Origin: Cryoendolithus antarcticus
Taxonomy: Eukaryota > Ascomycota > Dothideomycetes > Cladosporiales > Cladosporiaceae
Assembly: GCA_002077065.1 (NCBI GenBank)
Contig: NAJO01000024.1
Location: forward strand, 698,238 to 762,237
Direction of reading: 5' to 3'
Length of the DNA: 64,000 nt
The translations under genes and the position numbers were made by a program. The notes under the pieces were generated by a model that searched no databases, was not told the origin of the DNA, and was given only the letters and a program-made list of their open reading frames with translations. Positions within the stretch are counted from its first letter, which is position 1; each line of letters starts with the position of its first letter. Positions 42,720-45,369 of the stretch are shown piece by piece.

Positions 42720-43064
42720 GATGTTGTTGCGGAATTCGAGATCTGAATTCGGTCTGTCACGAATGATCGTCGTAAATGATTGCTGTCGTCTGCAATTGTG
42801 ATGATGTGGCGATGTCTGCGTTCTTTAGCGATGTCTCAGTTGAGAGGGTAATGTCGCTGATGATGAAGATGTAAAGGAATGAGATTCGATTGTGCTCGAA
42901 GGTGAGCATCGGAAGACGTCAAAATCAGCAGGTGCACGGTAGGCTGCTTCGCTCTTACCAGTCTTGATAAATTCAACGGGACCGCACCTCATCACTTACG
43001 TTGCACCTCATCTCAACACGATATACCGCTCTCAGTCCGCTTGCTCTACTTGGCCCGCCTCAAT
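42720..43064. other. divergent intergenic RBR gene / small ORF
   Basis: A 345-bp gap separates divergent starts. No gene or named element is seen. Confidence 0.4.
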
Positions 43065-44030: not shown

Positions 44031-44396
44031 TCATGCAAGCTTGTGCAAGTATCCTGCCCATCGATGGCATCGTCTGCAAAGTTTTTTGATACGTCGCCAC
44101 AGACTGTTGTACAAGCTCTTGCGCGCTTCAATCTCTTCAAGTTCGCTCTGGATGCTTGGCAGGTTCCGGAACGAGCCGAACCTCTCAACTTCACTCTGTC
44201 GCACCCGATGAGCAGTCCCCGTCGAGCATACACAACGCCCGCATTCGGCCTGGAACATGCGCGTGAAAGTCGTGTTCATTCGCGGCCTACAATAACATGG
44301 CAGACGTTTTGGTCGAGCTTCTGGAGCTAGCGCATGCGTGGTCGCGGTACTTCTAGGAGCTTGAATCCTGACTATGGTGGGGTGCACAAGCTCCAC
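44031..44396 (-). CDS. hypothetical protein, weak call
   Basis: This is a 121-codon frame whose second half looks like a real helical protein (NLPSIQSELEEIEARKSLYN, then basic WRRIKKLCRRCHRW). The first half is less convincing. It overlaps a plus-strand open frame (44043-44330) that is also coding-like, so at most one is real. No family is recognised. Confidence 0.2.
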   Translation of the reverse strand: MELVHPTIVRIQAPRSTATTHALAPEARPKRLPCYCRPRMNTTFTRMFQAECGRCVCSTGTAHRVRQSEVERFGSFRNLPSIQSELEEIEARKSLYNSLWRRIKKLCRRCHRWAGYLHKLA

Positions 44397-44658
44397 GAAT
44401 CGTCCGCACAGCTATCTATTGGTCATCCTGGACCTGCAGCCCCACGTTGACGGCAGAAGGGAGTCCGCAGTGTCCCGCCTCTTCGAAGCCTGGAGCGCCA
44501 AAAGACGCCGTATGCGTGGGCGGAACAGTAGTCGCAATTTTGGGGTGCTAGATTGGCCTTCCCTCTTCGTCGCTTGGCACTGGTTCACTCCCTTTCCGGC
44601 CAGCACTTATGAATACCTGGAGCATTTTCTGGCGGTCCGCGCACCTCCGAATGCGAGG

Positions 44659-44668
44659 GTATATAATT
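44659..44668 (+). promoter_or_regulatory. TATA-like element upstream of tRNA-Val
   Basis: The sequence gtatataatt lies about 25-34 bp upstream of the first tRNA base. Upstream TATA elements are known to support RNA polymerase III transcription of tRNA genes in some fungi, such as fission yeast. That could matter here because the internal A box is split. Confidence 0.5.
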
Positions 44669-44692
44669 GGAAAATCTCTAAGATTAGTCAGC

Positions 44693-44865
44693 GGTTCCAT
44701 GGTGTAAGTGAACGTCCGAACTCGTAATGTTCGACCCCTTCTAACCAATCGCAGCCAGTGGTTAAGACGCATGCCTTACATAAGCAGCTAGCGGCGTAGT
44801 GGTAATGCCCTCGTCGTTGCTCATGCGAGCGCATTAGGTCCCGGGTTCGACCCCCGGTGGAACCT
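44693..44865 (+). tRNA. tRNA-Val(UAC) with a canonical intron and an extra insertion in the D arm
   Basis: The acceptor strands GGTTCCA (44693-44699) and TGGAACC (44858-44864) pair perfectly. The T arm (CCGGG, loop TTCGACC, CCCGG) and the 5-nt variable region AGGTC are canonical. The anticodon loop CTTACAC, anticodon TAC, forms if 44781-44829 (49 nt) is removed after base 37, the normal tRNA intron site. The D arm forms only if 44704-44754 (51 nt) is also removed: GTC/GAC stem, A14, G18-G19 and A21 all appear. The sum is a 73-nt tRNA. The 51-nt segment has GTAAGT at its start, TCTAAC near its end and CAG at the end, like a spliceosomal intron. One mismatch (C27-U43) occurs in the anticodon stem. 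The discriminator is T, where A is usual for Val. It may be functional or a disrupted copy. Confidence 0.75.
44704..44754 (+). other. intron-like 51-nt insertion in the tRNA D arm
   Basis: It starts GTAAGT and ends CGCAG, with CTAAC 10 nt before the end. Its length, 51 nt, is within the 47-62 nt range of most protein-gene introns in this window. Removing exactly this segment restores the D stem and D loop. It splits the polymerase III A box. Confidence 0.7.
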
Positions 44866-45369
44866 CTTCTATTTTACCACTTGTGGCGCCATACGCATGT
44901 CTCTTTTTGGCGTTGTTACCATTTATTCGTATGCTCTCGCCCCTTCCACACGCATAGCTCATTGACTCCACAGACGGCTCTGTGACCAGAGCCCCCCGAG
45001 TCATGCTGACAACAGCCCAAGGCACCGTCAAGCAACATGAGCATTCTCGCGGCTGTACTCCGATCGAAGCGAGCAATCTACAGAACGCTGCTCAACTGGA
45101 TCGATCAACGTATTGTAGCTCCCCATACAATGTCACTGTCATGACATAACGCAGAGCCATGAACACGTATGAACAGGTAGGCACTGCTTCCGACTTTCGC
45201 AGTCATCTTGCATCTCCTACAGTATTCACACAGACACGAAGGAAGACAGTGAAGCGAAAAGCTTCGACATCCGTGATGTGGGCGTCACAGGTGTCTTGAG
45301 AGTGTGATAGTGCATGTCTACGATTTAAGTGCTACTACAAGCGTTGTACCGTACCAGCCGAGTGATGGT
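44866..45369. other. intergenic tRNA to secreted-protein gene
   Basis: About 500 bp has no gene beyond the T-run terminator. It includes the 3' flank of the minus-strand secreted-protein gene. Confidence 0.4.
44872..44875 (+). terminator. RNA polymerase III terminator of tRNA-Val
   Basis: A run of four T residues begins 7 nt after the tRNA 3' end, as expected for polymerase III termination. Confidence 0.6.

Follow-up and report, generated by a model that had tools for sequence, protein, structure and literature searches.

A tRNA-Val(UAC) gene with two interruptions

The window is a 64-kb stretch of an assembly of the Antarctic rock fungus Cryoendolithus antarcticus, 47 Mb in 149 contigs (C67:698238-762237 in the contig numbering used here). 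At 44693-44865 of its plus strand lies a sequence that reads as a tRNA-Val(UAC) gene cut by two segments. A TATA-like element, TATATAATT (44660-44668), starts 33 nt upstream of it. Exon 1 (44693-44703) comprises the 5′ strand of the acceptor stem and positions 8 to 11, and is followed by a segment of 51 nt (44704-44754) placed between positions 11 and 12. The remaining D arm and all positions through 37 are found in exon 2 (44755-44780), with the anticodon TAC at 44777-44779. The second segment, 49 nt long (44781-44829), sits at 37/38, is of the ordinary tRNA type and does not have GT-AG ends. Exon 3 (44830-44865) holds positions 38 to 73, including the B box GGTTCGACCCC (44844-44854). The first T run 3′ of the gene, TTTT (44872-44875), is a possible Pol III terminator, and a longer one, TTTTT, follows at 44904-44908; all these elements are on the plus strand.

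The D-arm segment begins with GTAAGT (44704-44709), contains CTAAC (44741-44745, branch A at 44744, 10 nt before the end of the intron) and finishes with CAG (44752-44754), which agrees with the GTRNGY donor, CTRAY and YAG of U2-type introns. Its junction does not slide by a single position. While the second segment lies at the 37/38 site of introns cut by the tRNA-splicing endonuclease, this one does not. The coordinates and motifs that the initial annotation had listed for the two segments were recovered exactly on reading the sequence.

ARAGORN called tRNA-Val(tac) when both segments were removed and in that case alone, as the initial annotation had supposed. Nothing was called with both left in, or when the anticodon segment alone was removed. 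Removing the D-arm segment alone, with introns allowed, gave an Arg(gcg) call that we regard as spurious; the 37/38 reading gives UAC. Run without introns, ARAGORN found no tRNA in the raw 64-kb window, and Rfam had no match in 44300-45300 up to E=10. A covariance model of the genome's tRNAs, whose training set included the window gene in its spliced form, gave just a partial match on the raw window (27.4 bits, 44793-44857).

Once both segments are removed the exons form a cloverleaf with anticodon UAC, as a nuclear tRNA-Val(UAC) should. The word “canonical”, used of this tRNA at the outset, is accurate for the cloverleaf and has to be qualified elsewhere: positions 27 and 43 form a C/U mismatch, and position 73 carries U. 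In yeast tRNA-Val residue 73 is A. Read across the 11/12 junction, 7 of the 11 A-box letters are kept (GCAGCCAGTGG). The U at 73 and the incomplete A box both count against a working gene with a spliceosomal intron.

Splice-like motifs were counted over the window. The strict form, GTRAGT...CTAAC...YAG over 40-90 nt, was found 4 times, against 1 in reversed controls. The D-arm segment is one of these four matches; the other three measure 50, 54 and 61 nt, and one of them sits between two ORFs. A medium form occurred 9 times against 7 in the controls, and a loose form 41 times against 50, so that there is no excess, which counts against the spliceosomal reading. The splice motif alone therefore proves little, and the weight of the argument rests on the other interrupted loci.

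A probable uninterrupted homeolog on C84

The genome contains two subgenomes, about 80% identical, and paired copies can thus be used in place of a sister species. A 16-kb piece of the window has partial matches on C84, with identities of 74-82%. The strand of these matches changes between window positions 42991 and 45370, which marks an inversion breakpoint in the stretch holding the tRNA gene. C84 carries, at 196932-197058 (minus strand; within L117), a tRNA with anticodon UAC and a 37/38 intron of 54 nt, without any insert in the D arm. Its first 37 nt, 26 of them identical, align without gaps to exons 1 and 2 of the window gene, and the D-stem pairs 11-24 and 12-23 differ between the two by compensating changes. 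The mismatch at 27-43 is common to both, and residue 73 of the C84 copy is A. In joined form this copy is called Val(tac) by ARAGORN and scores 53.9 bits with model R1. A Cys(gca) call, made by ARAGORN with the 37/38 intron left in, was rejected, the 37/38 reading giving UAC. The C84 gene, too diverged to be matched by two gene-specific patterns, has the expected strand, but its distance from the aligned block exceeds that of the window gene by about 10 kb, and we saw no flank match outside the gene between the two; homeology is consequently probable rather than proven. The comparison with sister species for an uninterrupted copy, proposed in the initial annotation, had a probable answer within the genome itself, and this copy, together with the splice signals, favours the proposal that an mRNA-type intron sits in a Pol III gene beside an ordinary 37/38 intron.

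At least twelve interrupted tRNA genes

Eighty tRNA loci were read: ARAGORN called 71 of them directly, and the other 9 were positioned manually. They had been gathered through Rfam, B-box patterns and exon patterns, the C84 copy in L117 being added. No clear calls were recovered for His, Phe, Cys, Trp, Lys(UUU), Glu(UUC) and some other isotypes. Among the 71 are six tRNA-like loci (L052, L053, L059, L067, L072 and L085) whose anticodon-loop inserts measure 67-90 nt and whose isotype calls are doubtful.

We found 14 inserts outside the anticodon loop, in 12 of the 80 loci; as a gene whose B box is broken would escape the search, both numbers are lower bounds for the genome, biased towards intact B boxes. 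These inserts cover 7 isoacceptors and 8 combinations of isotype and site, at 8/9, 11/12, 51/52, 65/66, 68/69, 69/70 and 70/71. Beside Val(UAC) at 11/12 in the window gene, they interrupt Lys(CUU) at 8/9 (C73, C97, C79) and at 68/69 (C97, C79), Leu(UAA) at 69/70 (C91, C66), Ile(AAU) at 65/66 (L088 on C63, L094 on C95), Arg(UCU) at 68/69 (C63, C95), Pro(AGG) at 70/71 (C112) and Asp(GUC) at 51/52 (L061 on C119). A one-off insertion in the window gene was rejected on the strength of the 12 interrupted loci.

All 14 inserts have a length between 51 and 58 nt, ends of the form GTR...YAG and a CTRAY motif, the branch A being 9-12 nt upstream of the 3′ end; the Lys intron on C73 has a second CTRAY closer to its end. 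A full GTRNGY donor was read in 11 of the 14. The exceptions are the 8/9 insert of Lys on C79 (GTACAT), which counts against our reading, and both Arg inserts (GTAAGA). Ends were set to GT-AG wherever the junction can slide. It is fixed in Val, Lys 8/9, Ile and Pro; elsewhere it has a freedom of at most 3 positions.

Uninterrupted counterparts and paired copies

For 7 of the 8 combinations of isotype and site, an uninterrupted counterpart exists in the same genome. The insert is missing from Lys at 8/9 on C94 and at 68/69 on C73 and C94, from Pro on C78, from Ile on C79 and C85, from Leu on C87 and C69, from Asp on C84 and C139, and from Val on C84. The Lys gene of C94 reads through 8/9 as an unbroken GCCCGGCTAGCTCAATCGG and has its downstream flank in common with the interrupted gene of C73 (92% over 50 nt); the two differ by one compensated anticodon-stem pair and by a 37/38 intron present in C94 only. 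With the insert removed, the Ile and Pro genes are 100% identical to their uninterrupted copies, and the exon strings tested for Leu and Asp are the same in all copies. The combination left is Arg(UCU), for which both copies found are interrupted in an Arg inventory that is incomplete. After removal its acceptor stem is paired at 7 of 7 positions, but three of these pairs, 1-72 among them, are G-U.

The interrupted genes could be dead insertion alleles or pseudogenes, with the tRNAs supplied by other copies. The uninterrupted counterparts just described fit this, as does the U at position 73 of the window gene, and a review, in the excerpts of PMC4090602 at hand, treats a nuclear tRNA gene with an insertion in the D or T arm as a probable pseudogene when it is one of many synonymous copies. 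Against it, paired copies of the Lys, Leu, Ile and Arg genes carry inserts at the same site; their exons are intact and the splice signals are conserved. In the Lys, Leu and Arg pairs the bodies of the introns have diverged, and donor, branch motif and acceptor were kept. Pairing of the Ile and Arg copies is supported by several tRNAs that C63 and C95 have in common, consistently in opposite orientation. The two Leu copies may instead be paralogs, since their flanks (49% and 58% identity) are hardly above the level of unpaired copies (50% and 47%, for example). The Ile introns are almost the same (56 of 57 letters) between flanks at 66% and 52%, which may reflect selection on part of the intron, or conversion of the copies. 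Finally, an AGA-reading tRNA is needed, and both Arg(UCU) copies found are interrupted, with the reservations on inventory and acceptor stem given above. We consider it unlikely that these genes are dead, and this branch of the alternative drawn in the initial annotation is disfavoured by the paired same-site inserts with their conserved signals and intact exons.

Less probable alternatives: endonuclease-type introns and introner-like elements

A further explanation is that the inserts are ectopic tRNA introns cut by the tRNA-splicing endonuclease, of the kind known from Cyanidioschyzon merolae, the nucleomorphs of cryptophytes and many archaea, with GT-AG ends and branch motifs present by coincidence. 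The genome does have four matches to PF01974, which correspond to tRNA-endonuclease-type genes, and in the portions of PMC9602550 available the tRNA-Ile(UAU) of C. merolae has introns at 12/13, 37/38 and 53/54. The anticodon introns of the genome, however, look different: none of 51 could be read as GT...AG at slides from -4 to +4 (L061 was excluded from this count because ARAGORN misplaced its intron), against 14 of 14 inserts with GTR...CTRAY...YAG and a narrow length range. No insert formed a full bulge-helix-bulge in the placement tested, nor did most anticodon introns, each given five placements; the window insert has 1, 2 and 0 central, outer and inner pairs, in a test that most anticodon introns fail as well and that does not tell the two groups apart. 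Chance resemblance of endonuclease substrates to spliceosomal introns is a quite improbable account of the 14 inserts.

Introner-like elements are known from related Dothideomycetes. A single mobile intron family of this kind, spread into tRNA genes, is very doubtful here: a non-exhaustive DNA search of the genome with a 261-nt query over the window locus, and with the Pro(AGG) intron, returned self-matches only (two of the eight searched), and by eye the insert families share little past the splice signals. The introner-like event first suggested for the window gene finds no support in these searches, and the near-identical copies of the insert that it predicted did not appear with the 261-nt query.

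Promoters and B-box letters

Of the 79 tRNA loci whose upstream sequence was long enough, 39 have a TATA-like element at -50 to -19; in a control interval the figure is 2 of 75. The TATA box is therefore not peculiar to the window gene. It is present upstream of all four loci with D-arm inserts, and this ordinary promoter element may explain why an insert in the D arm is tolerated.

The introns of Val and of Asp (L061) contain T-loop letters of their own gene, GTTCGACCCC (44729-44738, the letters of the T loop and B box) and GTTCGATTC respectively. Copies of that length were reached in 0 of 500 shuffles for Val and 2 of 500 for Asp; a total of at least two GTTCRANNC over the 14 introns had a frequency of 0.003 in shuffles. 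These copies could be the trace of a local duplication, or an added B box; the observation was made post hoc and is a lead only.

U6 snRNA genes with introns

Both U6 snRNA genes found in the genome carry a GT-AG intron at the same place, directly after GGATGACA. Its length is 58 nt in L139 (C62:576600-577000) and 56 nt in L140 (C1:1237080-1237480), and a B-box motif, GTTCGAACC, is present near the 5′ end of both. The C1 intron has no CTRAY, which counts against our reading. U6 genes of Rhodosporidium also have mRNA-type introns. In Schizosaccharomyces the B box is reportedly placed within the U6 intron (Frendewey 1990), as the B-box motif is here. The fission-yeast intron is of mRNA type and is spliced, according to the extracts of PMC10484740. 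The U6 genes of these other fungi resemble the tRNA genes described above in that a Pol III transcript contains a GT-AG intron and, within it, a branch motif. They differ in that here the hosts are tRNA genes, the sites belong to the D arm, the T stem and the acceptor stem, and several of the transcripts also hold an endonuclease intron.

Interpretation

We read 44693-44865, with a confidence of roughly 80%, as a nuclear gene for tRNA-Val(UAC) that contains two introns, a spliceosomal one (GT-AG, U2-type) at 11/12 and a tRNA-endonuclease one at 37/38. On this reading it is one of at least 12 tRNA genes of the genome that have acquired introns of the spliceosomal kind. Directly read from the DNA are the anatomy of the genes, their common splice signals, the presence or absence of the inserts relative to uninterrupted copies, the similar introns of U6 and the Sen-type genes; from these we infer removal by the spliceosome, the order of the steps and the function of the product. 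A literature search that covered subscription journals thinly turned up no description of nuclear tRNA genes with spliceosomal introns, and this absence is weak evidence.

In the scheme that we propose, the TATA box and the B box would position Pol III, and the spliceosome would recognise GTAAGT and CTAAC in the nuclear precursor. Removal of the 51 nt would restore the D arm. Three enzymes that need a folded mature domain, RNase P, RNase Z and the Sen endonuclease, would act after this restoration, the first two trimming the ends and the third taking out the 37/38 intron, and a ligase would join the tRNA halves. Two points speak against the scheme: exon 1 has only 8-11 nt, and Pol III transcripts have no mRNA cap.

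The gene sequences suggest that this fungus uses its mRNA-splicing machine for making some of its tRNAs. We think it rather probable that the spliceosome is here a regular enzyme of tRNA maturation, given at least 8 combinations of isotype and site in 7 isoacceptors. Maturation of some transcripts would then take the spliceosome as well as the tRNA endonuclease, and decoding of AGA would depend on the spliceosome too, as the only two Arg(UCU) genes found would require it.

Spliceosomal introns are present in ascomycete rRNA genes; like those described here they are of mRNA type in a transcript not made by Pol II, but the host is a Pol I rRNA and not a tRNA. As for the window gene, its 37/38 segment resembles ordinary nuclear tRNA introns, and its D-arm segment differs from them in site, ends, and branch and acceptor motifs. 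Interruptions at D-arm, T-arm or acceptor sites, sometimes several per gene, are described in the available parts of PMC3978253, PMC4090602 and PMC9602550 for Cyanidioschyzon merolae, the nucleomorph of Guillardia theta and archaea, and in this respect the cases are alike. Those same parts tie the introns of C. merolae and archaea to the endonuclease and the bulge-helix-bulge, and leave the nucleomorph mechanism open. The inserts reported here differ from all three in having spliceosomal signals and, probably, the length of mRNA introns.

If the spliceosomal reading is correct, splicing can act on Pol III transcripts whose first exon comprises a leader and 8-11 nt, and tRNA genes of a nuclear genome have repeatedly gained spliceosomal introns. 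An insert in a tRNA gene can be placed to a few bases by comparison with uninterrupted copies, which would make these genes a clean system for studying intron gain. Programs that search for tRNAs can miss such genes; ARAGORN, even with introns allowed, needed the D-arm segment of the window gene to be removed.

Other loci

Nine loci (L052, L053, L056, L057, L059, L072, L073, L074 and L080) were submitted to Rfam, and the single match was to tRNA in L052. The Rfam-negative L073 and L074 (C81 and C83) form a conserved pair with a TATA box, a B-box motif, a T run and a CTAAC...YAG string, and are possibly a Pol III RNA outside Rfam matches. L056 and L057 (C57 and C71), also Rfam-negative, are a conserved pair with a B-box motif and a T run. 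In L081 (C62:1555950-1556560), two extra T-arm-like fragments (GGTTCGATCCCTGCGCAG) stand in tandem 3′ of a tRNA-Arg(ACG) gene, as if the 3′ end of that gene had been duplicated.
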